A stretch of 64,000 nt of DNA, taken from contig NZ_SNUA01000018.1 of assembly GCF_004360225.1 (NCBI RefSeq), positions 1-64,000 of the forward strand, given 5' to 3'. Below, in pieces: positions 4,212 through 22,238 of the stretch. This stretch comes from Alcanivorax sp. 24 (GTDB lineage Bacteria > Pseudomonadota > Gammaproteobacteria > Pseudomonadales > Alcanivoracaceae). The position numbers were made by a program, and so were the translations under genes. The notes under the pieces are model-generated. The model saw only the letters and a program-made list of their open reading frames with translations, was not told where the DNA came from and did no database searches. Numbering within the stretch: the stretch's first letter is position 1; every line of letters begins with the position of its first letter.

Positions 4212-4256
4212 TATGACGGTAAGGCGGTGCTGTAAATAGATGGGGCGTGTTTTGCG

Positions 4257-4330
4257 TTCGCTGGCAAGCCAGCTTCCCACAGCGGCTCCGTAGCGCTTTC
4301 TGTCTGTGGGAAGCTGCCTTGGCAGCGAAT
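4257..4330. repeat. REP-like inverted pair
   Basis: Convergent copies of the local REP sequence: ttcgctggcaagccagcttcccacag and ctgtgggaagctgccttggcagcgaa, between the GntR operator and the 3' end of the endonuclease gene. The arms are imperfect complements, so the transcript could fold into a hairpin. Confidence 0.85.
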
Positions 4331-4357
4331 ATCCGAACGTTAGGGCTATGCCGCGAT

Positions 4358-5311
4358 TCAGCGGCAGTTCCCGGCCTTGCGGTAGCCGGCGGCGCGGGCG
4401 GCGGCTTCGCTGTCGAAGTCCACCCGGTTACCGGGTTTCATGGCGTTATAGCTGGGGCAGCCCTGGGGCAGATGGTAGACCTTGCTATTGCGGTTGCCAT
4501 GGATCGGGCCCGTGGATCGGGTGCTTTCGGTGCTGGCTGGTGTCTGACTGGCACTGGCCACGGAGGAGACCAGGCCTTCGCCGCTGTTGCGGTGGTTCAG
4601 CGTCCAGCGTTGTTCGCCGGTAACGAACGGATTGGAGTGTCCCATGATCGTGGCGATGCGCCGGTCCCGCTGGTGTTCCCAGGCGGATACCGGATGGCTT
4701 CGGTCCCAGGCCATCAAGAGCCGTTGCTGCTGTTTGCTCAGGCGCAGGTCGTATCGGTCGGCCATGTAGAAATAGACGCGGGCGACCTGGCCGCGCAGTG
4801 CCGGCGGCGGTTGCGCGGTACGGTGTTTGAAATCGACCTTGAAATCGCAGGCGCCGTATTGGGCCGCCACGTTCCGAACCGGGCCAAAGTTGTAATTGCT
4901 GCGATCCCCGTTGACCTCGCCCACCACCGGGGTGAGGTTGTGCATGTCCGCTTCCATGACCCGGAACACGGGATCCTCCGATACGCAGTTGCGGCGCCCG
5001 CCGTTTTGCCAGCACTGACGTTGGCGGCCAAAGTTGGAGGCGGGAACGATATGTTCCCATTCAATGCGCGCGGCCCGGTTGGCCTGGGCGCGCACCTGAT
5101 AACCGCATTCCCGCAGATGTACGCGGCCGCCGGTGCGGCCGGTCCAGTCCCAGGTGCATTGGCAGTAGGCGTCGCCGACCTGATTGCGATCGTTGTAAAC
5201 ATGATCACGCAGTTCTTTTTTTGCTTCGGCGAAGTGTTGTGGCGCGGCCAGAGCGGATAAGGTGAAAAGACAAACGAAGAGAGCGGGGAGCCCGCGTTTC
5301 AATAATGCCAT
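4358..5311 (-). CDS. Exported endonuclease I family nuclease with C-terminal Ada-like metal-binding domain
   Basis: A 317-aa protein beginning MALLKRGLPALFVCLFTLSALAA, a clear Sec signal peptide. The body is an endonuclease I/Dns-type domain (about residues 25-225) with the active-site region WEHIVPASNFG, the DMHNLTPVVGEVN motif and paired cysteines. A proline/serine/threonine linker follows, then a 45-residue tail (HGNRNSKVYHLPQGCPSY ... AGYRKAGNC) that resembles the Ada zinc-binding fold attached to several nucleases. Likely role: periplasmic or secreted DNA degradation. An upstream TTG would add two residues; I prefer the ATG. It is a single gene, with REP pairs on both sides. Confidence 0.93.
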   Translation of the reverse strand: MALLKRGLPALFVCLFTLSALAAPQHFAEAKKELRDHVYNDRNQVGDAYCQCTWDWTGRTGGRVHLRECGYQVRAQANRAARIEWEHIVPASNFGRQRQCWQNGGRRNCVSEDPVFRVMEADMHNLTPVVGEVNGDRSNYNFGPVRNVAAQYGACDFKVDFKHRTAQPPPALRGQVARVYFYMADRYDLRLSKQQQRLLMAWDRSHPVSAWEHQRDRRIATIMGHSNPFVTGEQRWTLNHRNSGEGLVSSVASASQTPASTESTRSTGPIHGNRNSKVYHLPQGCPSYNAMKPGNRVDFDSEAAARAAGYRKAGNCR

Positions 5312-5407
5312 TAACAAAAATGCCTTGTTTTACAGCGTGAAGTGAGCGGCGCGCAGTATAGCGACTTGACCGGCGGGGGAAAGGAAAATGCGCGGTGGTA
5401 AGGGACT

Positions 5408-5506
5408 ACGAAGCCGCTGTGGGAAGCTGGCTTGCCAGCGAACCGGGCCTGGGGATATCAACTTGCGCCGATTCGCTGGCAAGCCAGCTTCCCACAGTGG
5501 CTTCGT
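5408..5506. repeat. REP-like inverted pair, 35-nt arms
   Basis: Arms 5408-5442 and 5472-5506 are complementary except for one position (ACGAAGCCGCTGTGGG... against its partner). It separates the divergent endonuclease and lipoprotein genes. Confidence 0.9.
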
Positions 5507-6421: not shown

Positions 6422-6730
6422 TCAGTCCTCCGGCACATAGATCATGCGCCCGTCATCGAGACGGTAAGTAACGCCGGCCCGGGACCCTTGGCCCTGGCCG
6501 ACTTCGCCGTTGGACTCGTAGCGTGTCAGTTCCTGCCCGTCCTTGATGGTGATGCGCATGTCGGCGTCGCCCGGGTTTTCCACCACCACCACCTTGTCCC
6601 GCGAGAACGGGCTCAGTGGGTTTTGCGCGATGGTCACCATCAGAATGCCGATGATGACCAGGAACAGGTCGATCAGGTTGATCACCGAGAGCATCGGATC
6701 GTTGGCGTCTTCGTCGTCGAGAAAACGCAT
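6422..6730 (-). CDS. DUF2149 protein, ExbD-like motor subunit
   Basis: A 102-aa protein, last gene of the receptor-CobN operon, starting one base inside the stop of the ExbB-like gene (TGATG). It has one membrane segment near the N-terminus (about residues 14-36). This segment contains NLIDLFLVIIGILMVT, which aligns naturally with the ExbD membrane helix where an aspartate carries protons; here it is Asp21. A short hydrophilic periplasmic-type domain follows. Inference: partner of the ExbB-like protein in a proton-driven motor. The family is named DUF2149 from memory of its association with CobN-type chelatases. A longer frame reaching 7009 is antisense-like and rejected. Confidence 0.88.
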   Translation of the reverse strand: MRFLDDEDANDPMLSVINLIDLFLVIIGILMVTIAQNPLSPFSRDKVVVVENPGDADMRITIKDGQELTRYESNGEVGQGQGSRAGVTYRLDDGRMIYVPED

Positions 6731-7230
6731 CAGAGTCCGCCTTCCTGTTGCCGCTGTTTTTCCAGCTCGCGCAGGTCCTGCAACAGCCAGCGCCGACGCA
6801 CGGTGAGAATGAAAAAGCAGAGGCTCGCTGCCAGCAGAGCCAGGATCACGGCGGAGAACGCGGCGACCATATTGCGGCCGACGCTTTCGGCGTCGTTGTT
6901 GCCAAGGGCCAGCAGCGCCGGCCCCATGGGAATCATGGTGGCGATCAACCCGAGCATGGGGGCGGTGCGCGAGACGATGCGCAGCCACTCCAGCCGGCGC
7001 AGGATCCATAATTCCAGATCATCGCTGTGCGGCATTGAGTCGTGCCGCCGGGCAAACGCGAACAACCCGCCGGCCTGGCCGCCCCGGCGGCGTTGCCAGG
7101 CTTCCATCAGGAAAGCGCCAAACGTCACCAACGCATAGGCCAGGGCGAGGGCGATAAGGATCAGCACCGGCGCCAGAAAAAGACGGGACACGGTGTAAAG
7201 CAGGGTTTCGATGTCGGCAAAAGCGGTCAT
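6730..7230 (-). CDS. MotA/TolQ/ExbB-type proton channel protein
   Basis: A 166-aa membrane protein, start ATG at 7230, overlapping the cobN-like stop by 4 bp (ATGA). There are three predicted membrane segments: about 13-36, 87-110 and 118-143. The second contains RTAPMLGLIATMIPMG, which resembles the TAPLLGLLGTV stretch of ExbB/TolQ, and an arginine-rich loop follows the last helix. With the DUF2149 protein it should form an ExbBD-like stator in the inner membrane. Being locked between the CobN gene and DUF2149 by overlaps argues it serves the chelatase or receptor of this operon and not general TonB. Confidence 0.9.
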   Translation of the reverse strand: MTAFADIETLLYTVSRLFLAPVLILIALALAYALVTFGAFLMEAWQRRRGGQAGGLFAFARRHDSMPHSDDLELWILRRLEWLRIVSRTAPMLGLIATMIPMGPALLALGNNDAESVGRNMVAAFSAVILALLAASLCFFILTVRRRWLLQDLRELEKQRQQEGGL

Positions 7231-10200
7231 GTGTTTCTCTGGATTCGATTTTCCGGGAGCGGTGAACGGGTAAGCGGGGAGCGGGCTTGCCACAGAGCGC
7301 CGGCGCCAATCAGAAGCAGCATCAAGCTAAAGGCCCAGAGCAGCGGGGGAGCGTCGTCCGGGGATTCAGCGGCGACCGCCTCCATGACCTGTCCCTGAAC
7401 CGCCTGGGGCTCATTGGCGTCGTTGGCCGAGGGCGGCTGCGCCGGGTTGGGGGTGGCATCAGCGTCCGGTTTGGCGCCGCCATCAAGCCCGAAGCCCCGT
7501 GCCATGTCGGCGATGAAGCGGCGGGTCATTTCCGCGCCGGTGTCCACCTCGAACTGCTCCGACAGGGTTTGCCAGCGTTGCGCCAGTTGACGGCGGGTTT
7601 GCTCGGAAGCGTCCCAGTAGCCCTTGCGGATGGCCTCGGCCATGCGTTCCAGCATTTGTGCCTGGGCGGTGGGATTGTGCTGCTCGAACCACTCGTTGGT
7701 GCCCAGTTCACGGCTGTCGGTCACGTAGGTATCGAACAGCGACTGCCACTGGTCGTCGCGCACGGTACTGGGATCCATGGCCTGCCAGCCGAACAGATTG
7801 TTGGTGGCGTTGAGGACCTGCAGGGTGCCGGCGTAACCTTCCTGCTGCATGGCGCCGATCCATTGCGGGTTGAGATAGCGCACGCGCAGTTCGTCGGACA
7901 GGAACCGCTCCAGGCCGGCGGTGTTCACATCGCCGCTGCGCAGGTCGGAGATCAGCAGTTGGGGCGCCTCACCGTCCAGATGCCGGATCGCCGACGACAG
8001 CCCACCGAGAAACTCGAACGGATGGTCGGTGGAGAGTACGCCGTGCAGGTTTGATGACCGCGACATGATCGCGGCCTGGGCGCCGCTCAACTGTTGCGCC
8101 AGCAGATTGGTGTCGCCGGGCAGGTCGGCCTGGCCGTTAGTGCCATAGGCGTGGCGGTTGCTGGCCAGAAAGCGGCGGGCGAGGTCGTCGTCGTCGTCCC
8201 ATTCGGTGGAACGCAAGGCCAGATCGGGGACTCCGGTGCCGTACTCCCCCGGCGCGCTGGAGAAAAGGCGATAACCGGCGGCCCGTGCCGCCTGATCGGA
8301 GGACAGGCCCTGTTCCGTCAGGACCGAGGCGATGCGCCGGCTGTTGGCGGCGATCGGGTTGTCGGGCTCGTCCAGTTTGGCGAGGCGCTGCAGGGCGTCA
8401 TCGAGCAGCGACATGAAGCTGTCGAACTGATCGCGATAGACGCCGGTGACCTGCACCACCACATCGGTACGCGGGCGGCCCAGTTGCTTCCGGGGAATGA
8501 TCTCCAGATTCGTGACGGTGCCTGAACGGTCCCACACCGGTTGCAGACCCAGGGCGTGCAGGATTTGCGCTTCGGTGACGCCGAAGTGCCGGATCGCCTC
8601 CGACGACCACAGGCTGAACGCCAGCTTGGTCGGCCACTGGCCGTCGTGTTCGGCGCGGAAGGCGTCGAGCAACTGCCGATAGGCGTCGGCGCCGGCGTCG
8701 TAGGCGGCCCGGGAGGGAATCTTGTCCGCTTCGAAGGCAAACAGGTTGCGGCCGCTGGTGGTGTCCGGATTGCGGATCGGATCGCCGCCGGCGCCGGGGG
8801 CGACGAACCGTCCGGCCAGGCCGGCGAGCAGGGCCTGGTTTTCCTGCGTGTCCTGCAACTGTCGGTCCCGTTGCCGCGCTTCACGGGCGAATTCCGCCAA
8901 GTCTTCGGGCAGGTCGTCGCCGCTGTCCGCTTGCAGCATGCGTTTGACGGTCTGGTAGGGCAGGGTTTCGGTCAGCTGATTGTGATCGGCGGCGAACAAC
9001 TCGTTTCTGTCCACGCCAAGCGCGCTATAGAACGGCTCGCCGAGCTGTTGCATCAGGGTGCTGATGCGGTGGGCCTCGGCGGCGGGCTGGCCAAAGGTGT
9101 GCAGCCCCAACGGCATCGCCGTGCGCGCCAGCTCGTGCATGTGGTCGTGCAGGTGATGGAAAAAGCCTTCGAAATCCTGATCGATGCGCGCCGCACTCCA
9201 GCCGATGTCGTCGTGCAGATGCGCGGTGACGGCGGCATCACGAATCCGGGCCCGGAGCTGATCGTGCACGCCGCCGTCGTCCACCTGCTGGTATTCGTGT
9301 ATCAACTGATGCAGGTCGCGCAGTTGATCGTACAGGCCGGCCGGCGCGAACGGTGGCGTCTGGTGGCTGATGGTGACGGCGCGGCCGCGCCGCTTGGCCT
9401 GAATGGCTTCGCCGACGTTGTCCTGAATATAGGGATAGAACACGGGCAGAGCGCCCACCGCCAGCCACGGATAATCGCTGGCGGCGAGCCCGCGGTCCTT
9501 GCCCGGCAGCCATTCCTGAGTGCCGTGGGTGCCGAGGTGAATCAGCGCATCGGCGCCGTATTGGCGTTGCAGGTACAGGTAGCTGGCCAGATAACGGTGG
9601 GCCGGTACGCTGGCGGTGTCGTGGTAATGGGCGTAAGGATCGGCGCCGCGCGGCGGTTGGGGCATCACCAGCAGATGGCCGAGCCGCCAGCGTGGAATGA
9701 CGAAATAGCGCCGGCCGTCGATCTCGCGCACCGCCGGGTCCTGCGTTGGATCGCCGGTTTCCAGCAGCGCGTCCCGGCGCGATGGCGGCAGTGAAGCCAG
9801 CCAGCGTCGGTAGTCCTCTACCGGAAGCTGCGCCGCCAGATCGTCTTCGAGCAAGGCCTCCAGGGGCTCGCTGCCGTACAATCCTCCGAGCAGGCGTTGG
9901 CCGGTGGCGATCACTTGCTCCTCGTTGACCGGCTCGCCCACCGCGTAGCCGTCCGCGGCCAGCGCCGCCTGGATCGAGACCAGACTGAGCGGCACATTCA
10001 GATTCGAGGCGCCCAGATTTTTCTCGCCAGCGGGGTAATTCCAGTACATCAACGCCAGTTTCTTGTCGGCCGCCGGCGTATGTCGAAGCGCCACCAGTTT
10101 TTTCAGCTTGGCGATCAGCGCGTCGGCCTGCTCGGGCAGCAGGTCATCGACGCCGTTGGTGGTGGCGGAGAGCACGGTGGGGTCGCTGATGCCCCAGCCT

Positions 10201-11162
10201 TCCGGCGTGGCCAGAAACACCGCCGTGGTACGGGGCGGCACGCCGCTGGCCGCGTCTGGCCAGTCGGCGTCCTCACCGTCGCGGAAGCGCAGCGTCTGGA
10301 TCACCGGGATGTCGAGATCCAGGAAGTCCTGGCTGCGCGCCTTGCCATCGCGCAGGTGGGTCAGGTTCACCAAGGCGTCCGCCTCCGCGCCGTTGAGCAG
10401 GCTGCTCAGACTTGTTCCGTCAGCGCCGTCGAACCAGAGCACCACGGGCAACAGATTCGCCGCCTCCGTCCGTTGAATCAGCGCGTCTATCTCCCGGGTC
10501 AGCATGTCGGCGACCACGCCCCGGTGAATGACAAAGGCGACACGGCCATTGGCGCTCTGTTTATGCGCGCCGAGGTACCAGCTCAAATAGGCTTTCGCGG
10601 TTTTGAAAACGTGCGGTGCGTCAGGATGGTAAAAGCCGGTGGCGGGCAGCGCCCTGGCGGTTTCCAGCAGGGTGGTGGCGGGGCGGGCACCGTCGTTCAC
10701 CGCGCGGATCAGGGCAAAGAAACGGTGGAAATTCTGCTCGCCGCCGGCGGCGTACAGCGACGTCAACGCGCCGCCGTAACGATCGTCCAGGTGTGTCCAG
10801 AGCGGCCGTCCGCCACCGATGATCAGCCGGGGCTGTTGGTCCGCCGCGAGGTTGTCGACGATGCCGCTGACCCGGGCGCGGTCATTGGGACGCGGCACGT
10901 CCAGGACCAGCCAGGACGCGGTGGCGACCGCCTCGCGCAGTGCCGGCTCGGAAGCCGTGTCGATATTCAGGTGGGTCAGGGTGAGTTCCTGTTCCGTGGC
11001 GAAGGGCTGCAATTGCTGGAACTTTTCCGCTGAGACAAAGCCGTTGTGCAGCACCAGGACCACCGGTGTGGCGGCGGCGGAACGATTGGGCATGGTCAAC
11101 AGTACGGCGACCCATAAACCGCACAGCATCAACCATGAGGACGGCGACGTTGATCGACTCAT
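7227..11162 (-). CDS. Exported, membrane-anchored CobN-like metallochelatase
   Basis: A 1311-aa member of the CobN/magnesium-chelatase large-subunit family. Landmarks: HLGTHGTQEWLPGKD near residue 547 and the CobN body from about 120 to 1230. Unlike cytoplasmic CobN it begins with a hydrophobic signal (WLMLCGLWVAVLLTMP) and ends with a membrane helix (LLWAFSLMLLLIGAGALW) after a low-complexity linker. The catalytic body should therefore sit in the periplasm, anchored to the inner membrane. No CobS, CobT or cobalamin synthesis gene is nearby. Related operons from memory are Pseudomonas PA1922-PA1925 (zinc-starvation induced) and the Bacteroidetes HmuS haem dechelatase. It overlaps the genes on both sides. 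The substrate is open: zinc chelate, haem or corrinoid. Confidence 0.93.
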   Translation of the reverse strand: MSRSTSPSSWLMLCGLWVAVLLTMPNRSAAATPVVLVLHNGFVSAEKFQQLQPFATEQELTLTHLNIDTASEPALREAVATASWLVLDVPRPNDRARVSGIVDNLAADQQPRLIIGGGRPLWTHLDDRYGGALTSLYAAGGEQNFHRFFALIRAVNDGARPATTLLETARALPATGFYHPDAPHVFKTAKAYLSWYLGAHKQSANGRVAFVIHRGVVADMLTREIDALIQRTEAANLLPVVLWFDGADGTSLSSLLNGAEADALVNLTHLRDGKARSQDFLDLDIPVIQTLRFRDGEDADWPDAASGVPPRTTAVFLATPEGWGISDPTVLSATTNGVDDLLPEQADALIAKLKKLVALRHTPAADKKLALMYWNYPAGEKNLGASNLNVPLSLVSIQAALAADGYAVGEPVNEEQVIATGQRLLGGLYGSEPLEALLEDDLAAQLPVEDYRRWLASLPPSRRDALLETGDPTQDPAVREIDGRRYFVIPRWRLGHLLVMPQPPRGADPYAHYHDTASVPAHRYLASYLYLQRQYGADALIHLGTHGTQEWLPGKDRGLAASDYPWLAVGALPVFYPYIQDNVGEAIQAKRRGRAVTISHQTPPFAPAGLYDQLRDLHQLIHEYQQVDDGGVHDQLRARIRDAAVTAHLHDDIGWSAARIDQDFEGFFHHLHDHMHELARTAMPLGLHTFGQPAAEAHRISTLMQQLGEPFYSALGVDRNELFAADHNQLTETLPYQTVKRMLQADSGDDLPEDLAEFAREARQRDRQLQDTQENQALLAGLAGRFVAPGAGGDPIRNPDTTSGRNLFAFEADKIPSRAAYDAGADAYRQLLDAFRAEHDGQWPTKLAFSLWSSEAIRHFGVTEAQILHALGLQPVWDRSGTVTNLEIIPRKQLGRPRTDVVVQVTGVYRDQFDSFMSLLDDALQRLAKLDEPDNPIAANSRRIASVLTEQGLSSDQAARAAGYRLFSSAPGEYGTGVPDLALRSTEWDDDDDLARRFLASNRHAYGTNGQADLPGDTNLLAQQLSGAQAAIMSRSSNLHGVLSTDHPFEFLGGLSSAIRHLDGEAPQLLISDLRSGDVNTAGLERFLSDELRVRYLNPQWIGAMQQEGYAGTLQVLNATNNLFGWQAMDPSTVRDDQWQSLFDTYVTDSRELGTNEWFEQHNPTAQAQMLERMAEAIRKGYWDASEQTRRQLAQRWQTLSEQFEVDTGAEMTRRFIADMARGFGLDGGAKPDADATPNPAQPPSANDANEPQAVQGQVMEAVAAESPDDAPPLLWAFSLMLLLIGAGALWQARSPLTRSPLPENRIQRNT

Positions 11163-13114
11163 CAGAACGTCGCCGTCAGGCCGACAAAGTAGCGCCGTCC
11201 TTCGTCGGCGCGGTCATAGAGATCAGGGTCGTCATTGGCCAGACGCTCATCAGTGAGGTTTTCGACACCGGCGTGCAGGCTGATTTCTCGGCTGAAGGCG
11301 TAGTCCACGTAGCTGTACAGTAGGGTGCGATCAGGACGGTCGCGCTCGGTTTCGGAGCGGTACTGGGAGCCGACGTACTCGGCGCGGAAGCGGGTGCTGA
11401 TCCGGTCGGTGGTGTCCCAGATGAGCGTGGTGTTGGCGCGATGGCGGGAGCGGTCCGCCAGGCGCTCGTCGTTGGTACGGTCGCGGGCATCCAGATAGGT
11501 ATAGTTGGCTTCCAGCCGCCAGCGCTCAAGCAGAACCACCGCGGCGGTCAGCTCCAGTCCGCGCAGGCGCGCCTTGGCGATGTTGTCGTATTCCAGACAG
11601 ACGTAACCGGGCTCGAAGCAGGTCGGCTGGCGCACGGTTTCGATCAGGTTGCGCACATCGTTGTGGAACAGGGTGGCGCCGGTGGACCAGCGCTGCTGGT
11701 TGTAAGTGGCGCCCAGTTCAAAGGAACGATTGGTTTCCGGTTCCAGGTCCGGGTTGCCGCGAATGATGCCGCGCCCGCCCATGGCCGCCCGGGACTCGAA
11801 TTCCGGTGACAGTTGTTTCAGGGTCGGTGCCTTGAAGCCGTGACCGGCGCCGGCCTTGAAGGTCAGCCGGTCGGTGGGGTGGAACATCAGGTAGGCCCGT
11901 GGGCTGGTTTCCCAACCGAAGTCCTGATGACGATCGAAGCGGCTGCCGAGCACCAGCTCCCATTTGTCGCCAAGAAAGATCTCATCCTGGGCGAAGGCGG
12001 CATAGTGGGTCAGGTCGTCTTCGCCTTTGCTGTTGATGTTGGGGTCTTCCAGTTCCTCGCGGCGCATCTCGCTGCCCACGGTGAATTTATGGGTGTCGGC
12101 GACGATCCAGCCGACGCGGCCGTCGAGCACGGTGTCGGTGAACCGGTTGGGGCCGGTGGTATCCGCGCCGTCACTGCGGTAAGTCTCACGATCCAGGGTG
12201 CCGCGATAGAGGCGGACCTGACTGTTGCCCCAGCCCCAATCGCCTCGGTGGGAGAGAGAATAACGGCGGCGCTGCACGTCATTGTCGGATTGGTAGGGGC
12301 TGGCTCGGCTGCTGCCGCGAACGCCTTCCAGAGTCTCGTTGCCGGCGTCCACGGAGAGATCGACGCGCTGATAGGGGGCCGGTGTCCAGGTCAAACCCAC
12401 ATGGCCACTAGTGGCGCGTTGTTCGTCCAGGGCGGTGAGTTCGGGGTCGGCGGCGTCGAGCAGGGCGTCGCGACGGCGGTATTCACCCCAGACGTTAACG
12501 CCCAATGTGCCCGGTAGCAGCGGCCCGCCGGCATAGAAGCCGCCTTTGTAGTGATTGCCGTCCAGGCCGTGATCGCTGATCAGGGCCTGGCTGCTGAACG
12601 AGCCCTGCCATTGGTCGGTGGCGGAACGGGGAATGATATTGACCACACCGCCCAGCGCTTCCGAACCGTACAGCGACGACATCGGGCCACGGACCACTTC
12701 CACCCGCTCAATCGCTTCCACCGGCATCCAGCCCAACTCGAAGTCCGAGTGGGCGATGGCGGAGGCGGAGCTGTTGATGCGTTGTCCGTCGATCAGCACC
12801 AGGGTGTGTTCGGAACTCATGCCCCGGATCGAGATGCCGCGCCTGCCCAGACCGACGCTCTCCACATCGATACCGACGGCACTCCGGACCGCATCGGAGA
12901 GATCGTGAACGGGCCGTTGGCGCAGATCATCGCCATCGATCACCGATACGCTGGCGGGGGTATCCGCTTCGTTCCGTTCCGAGGTCGTGGCGGTGACCAC
13001 GATGGCCGGCAATGTGGCGGTTTGATGGTGCGGCGTGGACTCCTCGCCGATGGCCGGGTTGGCGGTGACAATGGCGGAGAGCGGCACAAGGGATACCAGC
13101 GAACGTGGAAACAT
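11162..13114 (-). CDS. TonB-dependent outer-membrane receptor, CirA/BtuB-like
   Basis: A 650-aa receptor starting at ATG 13114 (MFPRSLVSLVPLSAIVTANPA), with GTGAGG upstream; a longer frame to 13168 lacks a ribosome site. After the signal peptide comes a TonB box (AIVVTAT), the plug domain (about residues 40-150, with IRGMSSEHTLVLIDGQRIN and VEVVRGPMSSLYGSEALGGVVNII) and a 22-strand-type barrel ending YFVGLTATF. Its stop overlaps the cobN-like start by one base, so the four genes form one operon. A Zur-like box lies about 130 bp upstream. The ligand is unknown; the setting suggests a metal chelate, probably zinc-related. Confidence 0.95.
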   Translation of the reverse strand: MFPRSLVSLVPLSAIVTANPAIGEESTPHHQTATLPAIVVTATTSERNEADTPASVSVIDGDDLRQRPVHDLSDAVRSAVGIDVESVGLGRRGISIRGMSSEHTLVLIDGQRINSSASAIAHSDFELGWMPVEAIERVEVVRGPMSSLYGSEALGGVVNIIPRSATDQWQGSFSSQALISDHGLDGNHYKGGFYAGGPLLPGTLGVNVWGEYRRRDALLDAADPELTALDEQRATSGHVGLTWTPAPYQRVDLSVDAGNETLEGVRGSSRASPYQSDNDVQRRRYSLSHRGDWGWGNSQVRLYRGTLDRETYRSDGADTTGPNRFTDTVLDGRVGWIVADTHKFTVGSEMRREELEDPNINSKGEDDLTHYAAFAQDEIFLGDKWELVLGSRFDRHQDFGWETSPRAYLMFHPTDRLTFKAGAGHGFKAPTLKQLSPEFESRAAMGGRGIIRGNPDLEPETNRSFELGATYNQQRWSTGATLFHNDVRNLIETVRQPTCFEPGYVCLEYDNIAKARLRGLELTAAVVLLERWRLEANYTYLDARDRTNDERLADRSRHRANTTLIWDTTDRISTRFRAEYVGSQYRSETERDRPDRTLLYSYVDYAFSREISLHAGVENLTDERLANDDPDLYDRADEGRRYFVGLTATF

Positions 13115-13243
13115 CGGAGCCTCACGAGAAGGGCGCCAGGTGGCGCCAAAAATGAATAAGGGCGGCAAGGGCTCTGTTCCTCCCCCGAGGAAAGAGCCGG
13201 GTGGACCGGTTCCAAGGGTGGTTCCGAATCCGAATTTAAATTA

Positions 13244-13258
13244 TGTTATATCATAACA
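13244..13258. promoter_or_regulatory. Zur-like operator shared by receptor operon and dksA2
   Basis: TGTTATATCATAACA is an inverted repeat with perfect 6-bp arms and a 3-bp centre. It differs at one position from the gammaproteobacterial Zur consensus TGTTATAnTATAACA as I remember it. It sits in AT-rich DNA in the 185-bp gap between the divergent receptor operon (minus) and the zinc-free DksA gene (plus, ATG 42 bp away). Both genes belong to classes known to be Zur-repressed in Pseudomonas, which strengthens the call. Confidence 0.8.
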
Positions 13259-13299
13259 ATTAAGAAACCAACACCATCCTTCCTGAACAGGAGTGCCTC

Positions 13300-13749
13300 A
13301 TGTCTGAAGCTACCGCCACGTCTTCCATGGACCGGCCGCCGACGGAAGCGGCGCTGCGGCGGATGCCCAAACGTGACTACATGAACCGGCGGCAACAGAT
13401 GTTCTTCCGGCAGCGTTTACTGGCGATGAGAGAGGCGATTGAAGCGGATCTGGCCACTTACCGCCTGGCGTTGCAGTCCGATGAGCGGCAACCGGACGCC
13501 TTTGATCTGGCCAGCGCGGAGGAGGACCGGCGCTATCTTTTGAGGACCATTGAGCGCAACGTCGGGCTGCTGAAAAAAGTGGACGGTGCCTTACGACGGC
13601 TGGCTACCGGCGATTATGGTTACTGCCTGGAAAGCGGCGAACCGATCGGTATCGAGCGGCTGCTGGCCAGACCGACGGCGGAGTATTCCATCGACGTGAA
13701 AGCGCGCCAGGAAAGCCGGGAGAGGCATTACGTTCATCACCGTTCGTGA
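13300..13749 (+). CDS. dksA2: DksA2: zinc-independent DksA/TraR-family RNA polymerase factor
   Basis: A 149-aa DksA paralogue that binds the RNA polymerase secondary channel with ppGpp. The coiled-coil tip keeps the acidic motif (DAFDLA, residues 67-72, a DxxDxA pattern). The globular domain has lost the zinc finger: canonical CxxC...CxxC is reduced to C109, with S112, S130 and V133 in place of the other three cysteines (GYCLESGEPIGIERL and YSIDVK). That is the signature of DksA2, which in Pseudomonas replaces DksA during zinc starvation. The ATG follows ACAGGAG. The Zur-like box 42 bp upstream fits. Confidence 0.93.
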   Translation: MSEATATSSMDRPPTEAALRRMPKRDYMNRRQQMFFRQRLLAMREAIEADLATYRLALQSDERQPDAFDLASAEEDRRYLLRTIERNVGLLKKVDGALRRLATGDYGYCLESGEPIGIERLLARPTAEYSIDVKARQESRERHYVHHRS

Positions 13750-16022: not shown

Positions 16023-16520
16023 GTGAGGCAGGGCGCGCTGCTGGAGGCGTACCAGCAACATAGAGAAGACCTGCTCGGTTTTTTAACCCGGCGCCTGCGC
16101 TGTCATTTCACCGCCGCGGATCTGCTCCAGGAACTGTATCTGCGTCTGGTTCAAGCGGAGAGCCAGGGGCCGGTCCTCAACAGGAGGGCTTATCTGTACC
16201 GGATGGCGGCCAATCTGGCCACCGATCACATCCGGGTGGAAAGCCGCCGCCGTGAGATCCTGGAACAGAACCATCAGCCCGAGGACCTTCTCGAGACCCG
16301 CGGACCCGAGCGTAATTGTATGGCCGACGAGACCTTGCGGCGTCTCCAGGACGCGCTGCAAGATTTGCCGGAACGTAGCCGGCACATTTTCTTTGCCAAC
16401 CGGTTCGAAGGCAAAACCCAGCAGCAGATCGCGAAAGAGTTGGGGGTTTCCACCACCACGGTGGAGAATCATATTCGCCGGGTGTTCGAACATCTGGCGA
16501 AAATTCGTGATCAACGCTGA
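16023..16520 (+). CDS. FecI-like ECF sigma factor
   Basis: A 165-aa extracytoplasmic-function sigma factor. Region 2 is at residues 5-75 (LLEAYQQHREDLLGFLTRRL ... YLYRMAANLATDHIR) and region 4 near the C-terminus (LQDLPERSRHIFFANRFEGKTQQQIAKELGVSTTTVENHIRRVFEHLAKIR). Such factors transcribe the cognate receptor operon when FecR relays ligand binding. The start is GTG at 16023, with GAGGG 6-10 bases upstream. The Fur-type box is immediately before it. FecR and receptor genes follow on the same strand. Confidence 0.94.
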   Translation: MRQGALLEAYQQHREDLLGFLTRRLRCHFTAADLLQELYLRLVQAESQGPVLNRRAYLYRMAANLATDHIRVESRRREILEQNHQPEDLLETRGPERNCMADETLRRLQDALQDLPERSRHIFFANRFEGKTQQQIAKELGVSTTTVENHIRRVFEHLAKIRDQR

Positions 16521-16639
16521 GCAAAAAGCCGAAAATCGAATGGAAAAGTTGGGCAGGCCGGGCACCGGCTCGTCCTACCGGATATAGGGCCGGACTTTCC
16601 GGTGTAACACCGGGCTTGCGAAAGATCCTGGACGGGTTA

Positions 16640-17587
16640 ATGACTTCGACGGACAACAATACAGACAGCGGGGTGATCGCGGAAACCGCCCGTCATTGGG
16701 TGATCCGAACCGCTTCGGGCTCGATGGATCAAAGTGAACAGGAGCGGCTTCACCGCTGGCTGGCCGCCGATCTCCGTCATCGCCGGGCCTTTGAACGTGA
16801 ACAGCAATTCTGGGAAGATCTGGCGGCGCTGGAGGCGGACATGCGCCCGGCACCAAAGGTGACGGCGTTGCCGGTTCGTCGACGCCGCTTTCTGTCTCTG
16901 GCCGCCGCCGCCAGTGTCGCGCTGGTGATGATGGTGCTGGCGTTGCGGCCGCAGGGTGACTTTCATACCGCGCCGGGCGAAATCCGGACCGTCGCCCTGG
17001 AAGACGGTTCTCGTATGATTCTGGACACTGACTCCGCCGTGGATGTGCATTATGACGCCGGGCGGAGGCGTATTGAGTTGCGACACGGCCGGGCCTGGTT
17101 TGAGGTGGTTCCCAATAAGCAGAGGCCGTTTCAGGTCTGGTCGCAAGGTGGTATGGCACAAGCGGTGGGGACGGCTTACCAGGTTGAGGACCGTGGCCGC
17201 TCGGCTTTGGTGACCGTGACTCACGGCGCGGTGTTGGTGCGCTCGCCGGAACAGGGTAGTGGCCACGGGGTAACCGTCCATGCCGGACAGGCCGTGGCCT
17301 ATGATCAAGGGCAGGCGCCGTCCGCGTCGTCGAACGCGGATGTCACCGCTGCTCTGTTATGGACCCGCGGCAGGCTGGAGCTGGATGATTTGCCGCTGGA
17401 CGAAGTGGTGGCGGTGATTCAACGTTATCACCCCGGCAAGGTGCTCTTGCTTGACGCTGACGCCGGCCGCCGCCGCGTATCGGCGATGCTGTCCGTGGCC
17501 GAACTCGATAAAGGTCTGGATGCCCTGGCGGAAAGCCAGGGGCTGACCCTTCGCCGGCTGACGCCTTATCTGACGCTCCTTTACTGA
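16640..17587 (+). CDS. FecR-family anti-sigma/sigma regulator
   Basis: A 315-aa inner-membrane protein from ATG 16640 (an in-frame TTG lies at 16616). A cytoplasmic N-terminal helical domain (ARHWVIRTASGSMDQSEQERLHRWLAADLRHRRAFE) binds the sigma factor. One membrane helix spans about residues 84-102 (FLSLAAAASVALVMMVLAL). The periplasmic FecR domain follows (GEIRTVALEDGSRMILDTDSAVDV, then RRIELRHGRAWFEVV), ending in an STN-like segment that contacts the receptor signalling domain. It transmits the haem or siderophore-bound state from the receptor to the sigma factor. Confidence 0.94.
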   Translation: MTSTDNNTDSGVIAETARHWVIRTASGSMDQSEQERLHRWLAADLRHRRAFEREQQFWEDLAALEADMRPAPKVTALPVRRRRFLSLAAAASVALVMMVLALRPQGDFHTAPGEIRTVALEDGSRMILDTDSAVDVHYDAGRRRIELRHGRAWFEVVPNKQRPFQVWSQGGMAQAVGTAYQVEDRGRSALVTVTHGAVLVRSPEQGSGHGVTVHAGQAVAYDQGQAPSASSNADVTAALLWTRGRLELDDLPLDEVVAVIQRYHPGKVLLLDADAGRRRVSAMLSVAELDKGLDALAESQGLTLRRLTPYLTLLY

Positions 17588-17763
17588 TTTGCCTTGAAAT
17601 CGCGTGTGGACATTGATGTCCGCACCGGGCGATGACCGCGTGTGCTCTCTTTGTCTGGCAAGAAAATAAAAAAATACGATTGGGAATGAAACTCATTTGC
17701 TCGTCCTAGTTGTCAGTAGCGTGTTTGATCGCGCGGCACAGATAACAGGACGGAGTAAGCAGA

Positions 17764-20331
17764 GTGTCAGGCTCGAAGTTTTCCGCTTTTACCCATCGCC
17801 GTTATAACACGGTGTGCTGGATTCTATCGGTGGCCCTGACGGGCCCAGTGACGGTGGTCAGAGCCGAGGAGGGGCGTGTCCAAGTAGTGGCGGCGGAAGC
17901 GCGGCTGACATTCGATATTCCGGCCCAGAGCCTGGAGTCGGCGTTGAAGTTGTTTACCCGTCAATCCGGTGGGCAGTTGATCTACGGTGCGCTGGATCTG
18001 TCTCCATACCATGCGCCGGCCGTGCAGGGGAGTATGACCTACGGTGACGCTCTGTCCCGTTTGCTCTCCGCTTCGGAAATAGAATTCCGTCTGCGGGACG
18101 GTAACGTGGCGGTGCTTCGCGAGCGCCGGGATCAGTCCGCCGAGGAGGTCAATACCCTGCAGCGGGTGGATGTGGTGGGCACCTTCGACGAGGAGCGGGA
18201 ACACATCTATCAGACGCCGGGTGCCGCCGGTGTGGTGACCCGGGAACAGATCGACCGTCTGCCGCCGCGCAACACCTCGGACGTGGTGGAAAATGTCTCC
18301 GGCGTGTTCACCTCGCAAAGCCGCCAGAACCCGGGCGTGTCGGTGAACGTGCGTGGCATGCAGGATTTCGGCCGGGTCACGGTGATGGTGGACGGTGCCC
18401 GCCAGAACTTCCAGAAAAGTGGCCACGGTTCCAACGGCCTGGTCTACGTGGACCCGGAGTTGCTGTCCGGCGTGGACGTATTCAAGGGGCCGGTGTCCAC
18501 CGCCGGTGGCGCCGGCAGCATCGCCGGCACGGTGAACTTCAAAACGCTGGACGCGGACGATCTGCTGGAGAACGGTGAGCGCGCCGGCGGGCGCCTGAAT
18601 CTTAACAGCGGCGACAACGGCTACCATTTCGCCGGCAGCCTGGCCGCCGCCTTTCGTCCCTCCGACAATTTCGATATGACCGCCGCCATCAGCCGCAAGA
18701 ACCTGGGCGACTACGAACGCGGCCGCCGCGGGCTTCCGGATGACACACCGGATTACTTGCACGGCGTCAGTCAGTTCACCGGTCAGGAGCAGTGGTCCGG
18801 CCTGTTCAAGACGCGCTGGCGGTTCGCGCCGGATCAGTCCCTGGAGCTGAGCTATGTGGGCATGCGCGCGGACTACAGCGAGAGCTATCAGGACACCAGC
18901 TTGCAGGACCAGCAGCGCGGCGAAAACGAGGCGCACACCGATACGCTCAGCGCTCATTACCATCACGGCGGCGGTGATAACCTGCTGCTTGATCTGGATG
19001 CCAGCCTTTACTACACCCTGACCCGGGTGAACGAGGCCCGACGCGGGTCCAATTTCTACGACGATTTCGCGGTGGAGTACGAGACCAATACCGTGGGTGG
19101 CACGCTCGCCAACCGGTCGGTGTTTCCGTTCTCCGGGTTTGATCTGGCGTTGGATTACGGCACCGAGTTCTACTACGACTGGACCGATCCCCAGGCCCAG
19201 TCCCGATCCAACGACTCGCAAAGCTCCACGGAATGGTTTACCGGCGCCACCCCGGAAGGGGAGCGCTGGGTCACCAGTGCCTTCACCGAGGCGACCTTTC
19301 AGCATCAGGACTGGCTGAAGCTGATCGCCGGCCTGCGCTATGACTGGTATCAGATCGAGGGTAATGGGCGCGTTTTCAACGGTCTCATTCCCAATCCGGA
19401 AGGCGTGCGCCCCAGCTATACGCGCATCTACACCAATTTCGACGTGGAGCGTCACGCCGGCGACTTCGCGCCCAAACTGACCCTGTCCCTGTCGCCGTAC
19501 CGCTGGCTGGAAGTCTATGGCTCCTATGGCCAAGGGTTGCGCCCGCCGGCGATTACCGAATCCCTGCTGTCCGGCGCCCATGTGGGCAACATGTTCTATT
19601 ACTACCCCAATCCCGGGCTGGAGGAAGAGCGCTCGCGCAACTGGGAAGTGGGCGCCAACCTGAAATGGGACGGCCTGCTGGCCCGCGGCGATACCCTGCG
19701 CACCAAGATCGCCTGGTTCGATTCCACGGTGGAAAACTACATGGTGCAGGGCGCCATCATGACACCGGTGGACGAGGCCCAGCCGGTGGGGTTCAGCGGC
19801 TTCGCCTTCGTCAACCTGGACGATGACGTGCGCTTCCGGGGCCTGGAGGTGGAAGCCGACTACGACGCCGGCTGGGTATTCGGTGGCGTCTCCTACACCC
19901 GCATGCTGATCGACATGGGCGAGGGCGGCTACGACCCCTTTCCCCTGGGCAGCGTCTATGGCTATCCGGACACGGTGTTCGGCGAACCCGGTGGCTACAA
20001 CGGCGGCGCCGTCTGGTATGTGCTGCCGCCCCGGCAGCGCGTACTCGCGAACCTGGGCTTCCGGCTGTTCGACCGCAAGCTGACCCTGGGATCGAGATTT
20101 CGCTACGAACGCACCTCCAAAACACCGCCCATCGGTGGCTGGGTGTCCGGCAGTGCGGTGGACTCCTGGCGCACCTGGGATCTGTGGAGCAGCTACGAGC
20201 TGACCGACAACGCCACCCTGCGGCTGTCGGTGAATAACCTGCGCGACACCTACTACACCGAGATGAACGGCGGCAGCTACCAGGTCGGTACCGGCCGCAC
20301 CGTGATCGGCGGTATTTCCCTTCGATTCTGA
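17764..20331 (+). CDS. HasR-like TonB-dependent haem/haemophore-type receptor with signalling domain
   Basis: An 855-aa outer-membrane transducer, start GTG with GGAG upstream. In order: signal peptide (about 1-34), secretin/TonB N-terminal signalling domain (about 46-118, LTFDIPAQSLESALKLFTRQSGGQLIY), TonB box region (RVDVVGTF, about 136-143), plug (to about 265) and barrel. In the barrel, LRPPAITES and NPGLEEERSRNWEVG sit where haem receptors carry FRAP and NPNL boxes. It ends TVIGGISLRF. With FecI and FecR it forms a Has/Fec-type surface-signalling system. No HasA haemophore or haem ABC transporter is in the window. The exact ligand (haem, haemoglobin, haemophore) is inference. Confidence 0.93.
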   Translation: MSGSKFSAFTHRRYNTVCWILSVALTGPVTVVRAEEGRVQVVAAEARLTFDIPAQSLESALKLFTRQSGGQLIYGALDLSPYHAPAVQGSMTYGDALSRLLSASEIEFRLRDGNVAVLRERRDQSAEEVNTLQRVDVVGTFDEEREHIYQTPGAAGVVTREQIDRLPPRNTSDVVENVSGVFTSQSRQNPGVSVNVRGMQDFGRVTVMVDGARQNFQKSGHGSNGLVYVDPELLSGVDVFKGPVSTAGGAGSIAGTVNFKTLDADDLLENGERAGGRLNLNSGDNGYHFAGSLAAAFRPSDNFDMTAAISRKNLGDYERGRRGLPDDTPDYLHGVSQFTGQEQWSGLFKTRWRFAPDQSLELSYVGMRADYSESYQDTSLQDQQRGENEAHTDTLSAHYHHGGGDNLLLDLDASLYYTLTRVNEARRGSNFYDDFAVEYETNTVGGTLANRSVFPFSGFDLALDYGTEFYYDWTDPQAQSRSNDSQSSTEWFTGATPEGERWVTSAFTEATFQHQDWLKLIAGLRYDWYQIEGNGRVFNGLIPNPEGVRPSYTRIYTNFDVERHAGDFAPKLTLSLSPYRWLEVYGSYGQGLRPPAITESLLSGAHVGNMFYYYPNPGLEEERSRNWEVGANLKWDGLLARGDTLRTKIAWFDSTVENYMVQGAIMTPVDEAQPVGFSGFAFVNLDDDVRFRGLEVEADYDAGWVFGGVSYTRMLIDMGEGGYDPFPLGSVYGYPDTVFGEPGGYNGGAVWYVLPPRQRVLANLGFRLFDRKLTLGSRFRYERTSKTPPIGGWVSGSAVDSWRTWDLWSSYELTDNATLRLSVNNLRDTYYTEMNGGSYQVGTGRTVIGGISLRF

Positions 20332-20356
20332 ACCGATTCCGCAAGAGGACAGAACC

Positions 20357-22174
20357 ATGAAAGCAAGATGGCAAACCCCCGCGGCGCTGGCACTGTGCGG
20401 CGTCGTGTCCCTGACCCAGGCCGCCGACGGCGATTTCACGCCGAACGTGATTGTCGATTTCACCGGGGCCGCCGGCGAATTTCGCGGTAAGCGCCCGGAG
20501 GCGCCGCCGCTGCTGGGCGCGGATGGCCGACTCTATGGCGTCACCTTCGATAGCGGCGAGCCGGGTGCTGGTGACTATTCCGTTATCACTCAAGGGGTGT
20601 ATTACAGCCTCGATCCGGATGCCGAGTCACCGGACTACCAATACCAGTTATTGGGTTCCGCCATCGGTTCGCCCTTGAGCACCCTGGTGGCGCGTAGTTC
20701 CGGCGGTTTCCTGGTAGGCAGTTCCCGCGCCGAGGATGTGGATGGCATTTCTTCCGACGGTCAGGCCGGCTGGAATGGCATTGGTGCCCTGGCGGAACTC
20801 AATGGTGAACTGCCGCTGCAGGCGGAACGCATCGTCGTGCCGGCCGGCTTCGAGGACGCGGACGCCGCTGATATGAAGGCGCGTGGCCAGATGGCGGTGG
20901 ACGGTGACGACAATGTCTATTTCTCAAGCGGCGGCCATCTTTGGCGGCTCGGCGCGGATAATACCCTGGGCGTGCTGGCCGAACTACAGGATGAACGTTT
21001 CTTCGTGGAAAAGATTGGCAATCAGAATTTTCACCGGTTCGGCCAACGGGTGGTGGCGCTGGTGTGGAGCGAGGCGGATCAGGCCTTGTACGGCGTGACC
21101 AGCGGCGGCAGTGGCGCGAACGCCGGCGGCGATCCTGGTGAGGTGGAGGCGGGCGATCCGTCGGGCACCGTATTCCGCATCGACGCGGATCAGCTGAGCG
21201 GCGGTGACACCACCGAGCCCGTTTTGCTCTACACCCTGTCGGATTCGTTGCACGGCAATCCGTCGGTCAGCGACGCGGGCTTCACCGGCCTGGTGGAAGA
21301 CGGTGCCTGGCTGTACGGCGTCACCACCGAAATCGCCTGGCGAATCAGGAAGGACGATCCCGCCAGTTTCACGGTGCTGCACCGGTTCCAGGATGAGGGG
21401 GGCGCGGCGCCCCGGGGCGCTTTGGCCCGGGCCGCCGACGGCAACATTTACGGCACCACCGAATTCGATTACAGCCAGGACGATGGTCGGGGTGGCGCCG
21501 GCGGGCCCGGCACCCTGTATCGCATCGTTACCGGTGAAGCGGCGGATCGCGCCGATGACACTCTGGAATTCCTGCATACCTTCGACGCCGCCACCGAGGG
21601 CAGCGCGCCCATGGGCCTGTCCGCCGGCGATATCCGCGCCGATGGTGACGGCGGTCAGATGCAACGCCTGTTCGGCGTGACCCAGGGCGACGCGGCCAAT
21701 GGCGAAGGCGGCATCTTCAGCGTGGACGTCCCTCTGCAAGCGCCGGCCATCACGGACTTCTCGGTAACCCCGGCCACCGTCACCGTGGGCGATGACCAGG
21801 CGCCGATGCTGTCCTGGAGCACCACCGGCCTGTACGGAGACAGCGCCTGTGTGATCGATGCCGGCGATTCCGCCGACTACGCCGCGCTCGCCGACGAGAG
21901 CCGCGCCGCCAGCGGCGGCCTTGAACTGGTCCCGCCCGGTCAGTATGGCACCGTCACCTTTACCTTGACGTGCACCGCCGTCGACGGCGAGACCACCGTG
22001 GACGACACCGCGACCCTGACCGTGGCCCGCGCTGAAGACGGTGCCGGAGAGGGCGACGGTGATGATAGCAGCGGCGGTGGTTCGTCCGGCGGTGGTGGTG
22101 GCGCGGGCGCCTTGCTGCTGGGCCTGCTGGCATCGGCGGGCCTGATGCGCCGCCGCCGGGCCAGCCAACGCTGA
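20357..22174 (+). CDS. Secreted GloVer-repeat protein with GlyGly-CTERM-like tail (1)
   Basis: 605 aa: a signal peptide (ALALCGVVSLTQA), then repeats built on G-x-L-x-x-x-x-D-G-x-[IL]-Y-G-[VT]-T (LLGADGRLYGVTFD, LARAADGNIYGTTEF), the GloVer tandem repeat that should form a propeller-like fold. An Ig-like domain with two cysteines follows (about 470-560). The end is GGSSGGGGGAGALLLGLLASAGLMRRRR, a glycine-rich stretch, membrane helix and arginines as in GlyGly-CTERM proteins cleaved by rhombosortase. It begins 25 bp after the receptor stop with GAGGAC upstream, so it is in the receptor operon. Function unknown; a surface ligand-binding role is inferred from context. Confidence 0.88.
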   Translation: MKARWQTPAALALCGVVSLTQAADGDFTPNVIVDFTGAAGEFRGKRPEAPPLLGADGRLYGVTFDSGEPGAGDYSVITQGVYYSLDPDAESPDYQYQLLGSAIGSPLSTLVARSSGGFLVGSSRAEDVDGISSDGQAGWNGIGALAELNGELPLQAERIVVPAGFEDADAADMKARGQMAVDGDDNVYFSSGGHLWRLGADNTLGVLAELQDERFFVEKIGNQNFHRFGQRVVALVWSEADQALYGVTSGGSGANAGGDPGEVEAGDPSGTVFRIDADQLSGGDTTEPVLLYTLSDSLHGNPSVSDAGFTGLVEDGAWLYGVTTEIAWRIRKDDPASFTVLHRFQDEGGAAPRGALARAADGNIYGTTEFDYSQDDGRGGAGGPGTLYRIVTGEAADRADDTLEFLHTFDAATEGSAPMGLSAGDIRADGDGGQMQRLFGVTQGDAANGEGGIFSVDVPLQAPAITDFSVTPATVTVGDDQAPMLSWSTTGLYGDSACVIDAGDSADYAALADESRAASGGLELVPPGQYGTVTFTLTCTAVDGETTVDDTATLTVARAEDGAGEGDGDDSSGGGSSGGGGGAGALLLGLLASAGLMRRRRASQR

Positions 22175-22192
22175 ATCCCTTGTTGATTTATC

Positions 22193-22214
22193 GGACCGGG
22201 CCCATGCCCGGTCC
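22193..22214 (+). terminator. Hairpin between the two GloVer genes (attenuator-like)
   Basis: GGACCGGGC (22193-22201), loop CCAT, GCCCGGTCC (22206-22214), then CTGTTTGTCTTT. The stem is strong but the T tract is interrupted. It may reduce transcription into the second GloVer gene, whose ribosome site follows directly. Confidence 0.55.
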
Positions 22215-22238
22215 CTGTTTGTCTTTCAGGAAACGTCT

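Follow-up and report, generated by a model that had tools for sequence, protein, structure and literature searches.

Organization of the locus

The window (the whole stretch of DNA that was analysed, 64,000 nucleotides) contains a Zur-like operator, TGTTATATCATAACA, at positions 13244–13258 between two divergent units. This assignment is based on the sequence itself, on its identity in congeners and on the presence of a Zur-like gene and of more boxes in the genome. The gap around the operator, from the ATG of a receptor gene (13114, minus strand) to the ATG of dksA2 (13300, plus strand), measures 185 bp, the distance already given in the initial annotation of this DNA.

On the plus strand, dksA2 (13300–13749) encodes a DksA paralogue of 149 amino acids without a zinc finger, recognized by the Pfam families DksA_N and zf-dskA_traR and by alignment with a C4 DksA. 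The motif AGGAG (13289–13293, plus strand) is its likely ribosome-binding site. One of the four finger cysteines is left in DksA2 (C109), whereas the other DksA of this genome (G000), encoded at G000:C1:558081, retains all four (CEAC, CIDC), in line with the description of DksA2 as zinc-free. The coiled-coil tip with the pattern D..D.A is needed for DksA activity; its residues D66, D69 and A71 are invariant in all 20 aligned rows.

The minus-strand operon begins with a TonB-dependent outer-membrane receptor (11162–13114; Pfam Plug and TonB_dep_Rec), which is CirA-like, CirA being its best NCBIfam match with 409.6 bits, below the cut-off of 745. It is followed by a putatively exported protein of the CobN superfamily with 1311 amino acids and a C-terminal membrane helix (7227–11162; Pfam CobN-Mg_chel), a relative of HmuS (PDB-entry 9d26), by an ExbB/MotA-type proton-channel protein similar to HmuU (6730–7230; Pfam MotA_ExbB) and by a HmuV-like DUF2149 protein (6422–6730; Pfam DUF2149) containing one helix with an invariant Asp. 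The composition is that of the receptor/CobN/ExbB/ExbD-like operon described before.

For comparison we used the best 80 of at least 506 confirmed loci in GTDB genomes that encode close relatives of this CobN protein. ExbB and DUF2149 genes are present in 79 of these 80 loci and the Asp of DUF2149 is invariant in 80 of 80 rows. The AlphaFold model of the DUF2149 protein, which is of low confidence (pLDDT 63, pTM 0.32), contains a helix at residues 12–36. ExbD has an Asp in its proton path, and the invariant Asp in the helix of DUF2149 appears to resemble it. A sequence-based comparison of DUF2149 with solved structures gave no meaningful match, to ExbD or otherwise.

The Zur-like operator and its candidate promoters

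The arms of the palindrome at 13244–13258 are perfect over 6 bp (TGTTAT/ATAACA), as noted in the initial annotation, and the 50 bp around it have a GC content of 26%, compared with 62% for the 64-kb window. From the gammaproteobacterial Zur core, which we take to be TGTTATAnTATAACA, the operator differs once (T to C at position 9). The single mismatch reported earlier is therefore true for TGTTATAnTATAACA, and there are zero mismatches to the published consensus for Pseudomonas aeruginosa, GWWAYWNNNTWHCR (PMC10393844), a loose consensus that matches 8 places in the window. When up to three mismatches were allowed, the operator was the sole place matched in the window (two strand readings of one place), with 0.21 matches expected from shuffled sequences.

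In the 4.76-Mb genome the core TGTTATANNATAACA has three exact places, one of the other two being an identical 15-mer; about 0.01 such places are expected in a random sequence of the same size with 62% GC. Up to two mismatches yielded 19 matches in the genome when each strand was counted separately, and the reversed pattern yielded 10, so that many of the two-mismatch sites are probably due to chance. The operator and the gene layout are conserved in three congeners (G006, G007 and G008), where the box is identical; the leader of dksA2 in G007 has diverged, with the operator unchanged. We consider it very probable that the operator is read by the zinc sensor Zur.

The box contains TGnTA hexamers in both directions, TGTTATATC (plus strand) and TGTTATGAT (minus strand). 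Towards dksA2, TATATC (13247–13252, plus strand; 4 of 6 positions), preceded by TGT, is a weak candidate for an extended -10 element. Towards the receptor operon, TATGAT (13250–13255, minus strand; 5 of 6 positions), also preceded by TGT, is another extended -10 candidate. Since both -10-like hexamers lie inside the operator, one Zur dimer would block both. From this arrangement we infer that the symmetric, AT-rich operator provides a -10 element for each direction; an overlap of Zur boxes with the -10 element is described as frequent (PMC10393844). A scan returned neither a sigma-70 promoter pair nor a terminator at its threshold. Overall, a single Zur operator is likely to govern both directions. 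The proposal of the initial annotation that one Zur-like box co-controls both units is thereby well supported in silico by the consensus, the Zur-like gene and the conservation.

The leader of the receptor mRNA contains a predicted stem-loop (13170–13198, minus strand), whose sequence is conserved in four genomes; the whole leader has a z-score of -2.1. An Rfam search at an E-value of 5 gave no match to the stem-loop, to a B12 riboswitch or to another known RNA at the locus.

Zinc-related genes and further boxes in the genome

The genome encodes two Fur-family proteins. The first is Fur, with 179.9 bits against a cut-off of 146. For the second, the only NCBIfam match at an E-value of 1e-10 is Zur, with a score of 131.5 bits that is below the curated cut-off of 167. 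The initial annotation had named a genome lacking Zur as evidence against its proposal; a Zur-like Fur-family gene is present. This gene is placed behind that of a ZigA-type zinc metallochaperone GTPase (703 bits, cut-off 600), and a box with one mismatch lies ahead of the zigA-zur pair.

The identical 15-mer is located 56 bp before a gene for a ZnuD-like receptor (680 bits, below the cut-off of 950), with a weakly AztD-like gene (90 bits of 400) after it. Across this box from the receptor lie the genes for threonyl- and cysteinyl-tRNA synthetase and hisI. The third exact TGTTATANNATAACA core sits at a pyrC-type dihydroorotase. HisI, PyrC, CysRS, ThrRS and DksA paralogues are named as members of Zur regulons in PMC2770081. 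Upstream of the two ZnuA-family genes no convincing box was found: one has no site with fewer than four mismatches in 3.8 kb, the other only a three-mismatch site. The expectation of other box copies in the genome was thus borne out at the ZnuD-like receptor and at zigA-zur, not at the ZnuA-family genes.

Two further two-mismatch boxes were observed. One (L022, G000:C15:110254) lies approximately 360 bp upstream of genes for a copper-binding protein of the MbnP family and a di-heme protein of the MauG type and may be due to chance. The other (L020, G000:C10:24099) is located between two adjoining TonB-receptor genes, behind an ORF of 1099 amino acids without a Pfam match.

Boxes and neighboring genes at related operons

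Boxes were counted at 71 of the 80 related loci, leaving aside six without a receptor match by our query and three with short upstream DNA. A box lies in the 600 bp upstream of the receptor gene at 33 of the 71 loci with up to one mismatch and at 44 with up to two (best 80 of at least 506), counts that would be lowered by start codons that are probably wrong for some loci (e.g. L101, L109, L147, L151). The reversed pattern and a stretch inside cobN, which served as controls, gave 0 of 71 each. At 27 of the 71 operons, drawn from the same best 80 of at least 506, there is no box with up to two mismatches in 600 bp. One of the related loci (L143) is a 4.4-kb fragment. In 35 of the 44 boxed operons the distance from the box to the receptor start is at most 200 bp, and hardly any of these operons adjoins a dksA2.

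By a raw hand count, dksA2, rpmE2, a ZigA-like or a Zur-like gene is found near 22 of the 80 loci (best 80 of at least 506), within a reach of at most about 9 kb on each side: dksA2 at 6, rpmE2 at 6, ZigA-like genes (at least 50% identity) at 12 and Zur-like genes (34–42% identity) at 9. On a FastTree of 91 CobN proteins, the linkage to dksA2 falls into four separate parts and requires at least four changes (gains or losses). The arrangement differs as well: dksA2 is divergent from the operon in Alloalcanivorax and in two strains of Stutzerimonas stutzeri, is part of the operon, as its final gene, in Halopseudomonas pelagia and Pseudomonas sp. WN033, and converges from the far end of the operon in Castellaniella defragrans. 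The DksA proteins linked in this way retain one or two of the four cysteines, and the three that were scanned all match DksA.

In S. stutzeri dksA2, with a ZigA-like gene behind it, and rpmE2-receptor-cobN lie on either side of a gap of 197–198 bp; the divergent box is exact in L135 and has one mismatch in L116. The operator is hence shared by dksA2 and the operon in two lineages, Alloalcanivorax and S. stutzeri, that are distant in the CobN tree. The rpmE2 product matches the type B L31 protein (125 bits, cut-off 86) and the copy in L160 has no cysteine. With zinc-free L31 and DksA joined to the system and an operator in common, the pattern suggests that selection ties zinc sparing to the uptake system. 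At six Stutzerimonas loci rpmE2 lies between the box and the receptor gene, and the box is 391–427 bp upstream. According to PMC10393844, P. aeruginosa seems to be alone in placing PA1922 under Zur, as judged from a scan of the 150 bp upstream of the ATG across Pseudomonas groups; a scan of this length would miss the Stutzerimonas box.

We searched 13 genomes of the genus, including that of the window. Four have both dksA2 and a cobN of this type, G011 and G012 have a 57% DksA2 match but gave none for CobN, and the only CobN of G003 belongs to a second type. The genome of the window also contains a second, distantly related operon (L075, G000:C10:59077–66000) with the order TBDT-ExbB-DUF2149-CobN, the active-site motif DHPMSAAFLGG and a two-mismatch box that starts 33 bp before the receptor ORF. 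The second-type operon of G003 is like it and likewise has a two-mismatch box upstream. The CobN proteins of the genus branch with mostly betaproteobacterial ones in the CobN tree. The cobN gene of the window is a mosaic: across positions 8000–11250 the DNA identity to G008 is 60–84% (250-base steps, approximately 3 kb), unlike the receptor and dksA2 side with 89–99%, which suggests that most of the gene has been replaced.

The CobN-like protein

A signal-like N-terminal stretch and a hydrophobic C-terminal helix were seen by eye in the window protein and in nine of nine relatives. The CobN-like protein looks exported. In a profile search against solved structures, the heme de-chelatase HmuS (9d26) ranked first with 662.8 bits, followed by ChlH (569.8) and CobN (565.7). 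A single-sequence search also placed HmuS first (429.0 versus 384.9 for CobN). When only a piece of 121 residues surrounding the second motif was compared, CobN entries (44.4, 42.3 and 39.5 bits) scored slightly higher than HmuS (37.6), and the NCBIfam CobN model NF004644 matches the protein with 1677.5 bits, above its cut-off of 1248.

HmuS strips iron from heme, an activity that uses NADH, and has the motif HFG(T/A)HG with the catalytic His-538. Here the motif reads HLGTHG; its His546 is found in 81 of 81 members of the exported family among the matches listed, and the motif is common to the whole superfamily. The second HmuS motif, LSLDHxxEFMGG with His-1209 and Glu-1212, reads LSTDHPFEFLGG, with two other residues differing (T for L and L for M). 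The corresponding His1047 and Glu1050 are each present in 79 of 81 members among the matches listed. Three solved CobN entries, including 7c6o and 9uk9, have Asp/Gln at this motif, although two of the three are alike in the stretch shown; Asp/Gln also occurs in 7 of 11 other CobN loci of the relatives, the remaining four giving no pattern match. His269 (78 of 81 among the matches listed) aligns to His-254 of the HGR neck motif of HmuS, which is partly kept, as H-L-R here and mostly as H-M-Q in the relatives.

A distinguishing mark of HmuS is a Met-rich insertion in domain IV (PMC12583661). This insertion is absent: where HmuS has residues 714–933, the window protein has 52 residues with one Met (722–773), and in 81 of 81 members among the matches listed there are 50–84 residues with at most three Met. 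No HmuY or HmuT gene is found within the operon. Because the Met-rich insertion is missing and the operon is without counterparts of HmuY and HmuT, the protein is, as judged from its sequence, HmuS-like and not HmuS. With His/Glu in the active site and HmuS as the best solved relative, the metallochelatase of the initial annotation is better read as a HmuS-like de-chelatase.

Among 85 of 88 loci with enough upstream DNA (three were left out), in a sample based on the best 80 of at least 506, a box occurs in the 3.6 kb upstream for 55 of 77 loci of the His/Glu type versus 0 of 8 of the Asp/Gln type (Fisher P = 1.2e-4 at two mismatches, 0.009 at one). We set this association aside as an argument, since there are only three phylogenetically independent pairs and a sign test is indecisive. 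In Lampropedia L152, which is of the Asp/Gln type and lacks a box, a ZigA-like gene is nevertheless close by, so that the zinc linkage does not strictly follow the active-site type. Regulation of the Asp/Gln-type relatives by cobalt or B12 was also considered; the eight loci gave only tRNAs and no cobalamin riboswitch.

Comparison with known systems

Zur control of PA1922-PA1925 and of dksA2 in P. aeruginosa is already known (PMC4542158, PMC10393844, PMC8531726). According to PMC4542158, the genes of PA1922-PA1925 for a TonB receptor, a CobN-like and an ExbD-like protein are induced by lack of zinc and have a Zur site ahead, in parallel to the receptor and CobN genes here. PA1922 is 147-fold up on loss of znuA, and the operon ranks with the most strongly responding ones of P. 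aeruginosa (PMC4542158). Both PA1922-PA1925 and dksA2 are induced in the znuA mutant, and the promoters of PA1922 and dksA2 belong to a gel-shift class that binds Zur without added metal (PMC4542158, PMC8531726). Like the DksA2 described here, which is a probable Zur target, the P. aeruginosa DksA2 (PA5536) has lost zinc-finger cysteines and is controlled by Zur (PMC4542158, PMC8531726). The arrangement is different: the neighbor of the P. aeruginosa operon is PA1921, listed as a methyltransferase, and not dksA2, which is listed elsewhere as PA5536 (PMC4542158). It forms a unit with COG0523 genes (PMC10393844), while here the operator is common to dksA2 and the uptake operon. The E-value listed for the Zur site is identical for PA1921 and PA1922 (PMC4542158), so a shared Zur site may exist in P. 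aeruginosa too. For the CobN-like protein of PA1922-PA1925, a role with cobalt or with free zinc has been proposed (PMC4542158, PMC10393844, PMC8531726, PMC13083405).

The hmuYRSTUV genes of Porphyromonas gingivalis are annotated as HmuY, receptor, CobN, hypothetical protein, MotA/TolQ/ExbB and DUF2149 (PMC10434189). The operon in the window parallels hmuR, S, U and V of this Bacteroidota system (HmuS, PDB-entry 9d26), with the HxGTHG and DH..E..GG motifs in common. It differs in having counterparts of R, S, U and V only, without HmuY, HmuT and the Met-rich insertion, in the position of the membrane helix, which is C-terminal here and N-terminal in HmuS, and in the Zur box, in place of which the hmu system has an iron/heme response. 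With the aerobic CobN proteins (7c6o, 9uk9) the protein shares the superfamily, the length and the HxGTHG motif. In contrast to them it is predicted to be exported and has His/Glu rather than Asp/Gln, and its genome is without CobS (no TIGR01650 match at an E-value of 0.001). In the portions of the open-licence literature that were available, none linked HmuS to the Zur operon or described dksA2 as sharing its operator. The word zinc is absent from the available text of the HmuS paper, and a table of PMC3668242 lists 'HmuS' as a hemin transport protein, without a tie to Zur in the excerpt at hand.

Proposed mechanism and alternative explanations

Based on these comparisons we propose the following mechanism. 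A zinc-loaded Zur dimer on the single operator would block both divergent promoters at once. When cytosolic zinc falls, Zur would leave and both units would be transcribed. DksA2 would then replace the zinc-finger DksA and thereby spare zinc, and the receptor would import a chelated metal, probably in a tetrapyrrole, for example a zinc porphyrin. In the periplasm the exported and membrane-anchored protein of the CobN superfamily would strip the metal in a HmuS-like manner, with the proton-channel pair of ExbB and DUF2149 energizing either the receptor or the enzyme. The sequence itself, the gene families, their conservation, the boxes and the residues of the active site are observed; what we infer is that Zur binds, that both promoters are used and that the protein is exported and removes a metal, as well as which metal and substrate are involved. 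A bacterium is reported to produce zinc coproporphyrin III (PMC6104308), so that a zinc porphyrin would be a sensible candidate for the substrate. Shared Zur control is probably the best overall explanation of the locus. De-chelation of zinc by the CobN-like protein is a tentative part of the scheme that may well prove wrong.

A control by Zur restricted to the dksA2 side, with the receptor operon transcribed from another promoter in its 130-nt leader, would fit the closer position of the box to dksA2 (41 bp), and the conserved stem-loop of the leader could serve such other control. We regard this as quite unlikely, because most boxed relatives carry the box close to the receptor gene (35 of 44 within 200 bp) and nearly all of these are free of dksA2, TATGAT within the box faces the receptor, and in P. 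aeruginosa Zur acts on PA1922 itself (PMC4542158, PMC8531726). It is still less probable that the palindrome is a site for Fur or another Fur-family protein, or a chance occurrence: the genome has Fur too, but the operator departs at 6 of 14 positions (hand comparison) from the Fur core, presumably TGATAATnATTATCA, and the enrichment of boxes at related operons as well as the conservation in congeners oppose chance.

The other two alternatives accept the box and concern the cargo. The operon might handle cobalt or corrinoids, as a cobaltochelatase or in cobalamin salvage, with Zur control reflecting the replacement of zinc by cobalt. The score of the NCBIfam CobN model, above its cut-off (1677.5 of 1248), points in this direction, and so do the repression of the Zur regulon by cobalt in P. 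aeruginosa (PMC13083405) and the cobalt role suggested by the authors working on that organism (PMC4542158, PMC8531726). However, behind a signal-like N-terminus the enzyme would have no ATP at hand, CobS is absent by the TIGR01650 search, the active site has His/Glu whereas the cobalt enzymes have Asp/Gln, and Rfam found no riboswitch at the locus, all of which makes a function with cobalt unlikely. A true heme-iron de-chelatase that is only incidentally under Zur would be in agreement with HmuS as the nearest solved relative and with the heme-type receptor and FecI/FecR-like regulators at 16023–20331, approximately 3–7 kb from the box. The boxes and neighboring genes are nevertheless of the zinc-starvation type, and the Met-rich insertion is missing with the HGR motif only partly kept; we consider a heme-iron function improbable as well.

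If shared Zur control is correct, sparing and scavenging of zinc would be switched on together, along with an adjustment of the stringent response. The link to HmuS makes the CobN-like family of PA1922-PA1925 testable as a remover of metal from porphyrins, and zinc porphyrins, if they are the substrate, would be an overlooked source of zinc. A wider generalization, which we offer as doubtful, is that a widespread proteobacterial, Zur-controlled system with a HmuS-like de-chelatase (receptor/ExbB/DUF2149), now annotated as cobaltochelatase, recovers zinc from porphyrin-type chelates, e.g. zinc coproporphyrin III, and has its operator in common with a zinc-free DksA in at least two lineages.

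Other features of the window

Positions 16023–24419 of the window encode a FecI-like sigma factor, a FecR-like regulator and a receptor of the heme/hemoglobin type together with two GloVer-repeat proteins with glycine-rich C-terminal tails. An endonuclease I with a C-terminal 'sunset' domain is encoded at 4361–5317 on the minus strand. At approximately 4250–5500, and on other contigs, a recurring stretch reads RWQASFPQRLRS or similar in several spurious ORFs and is probably a dispersed repeat.
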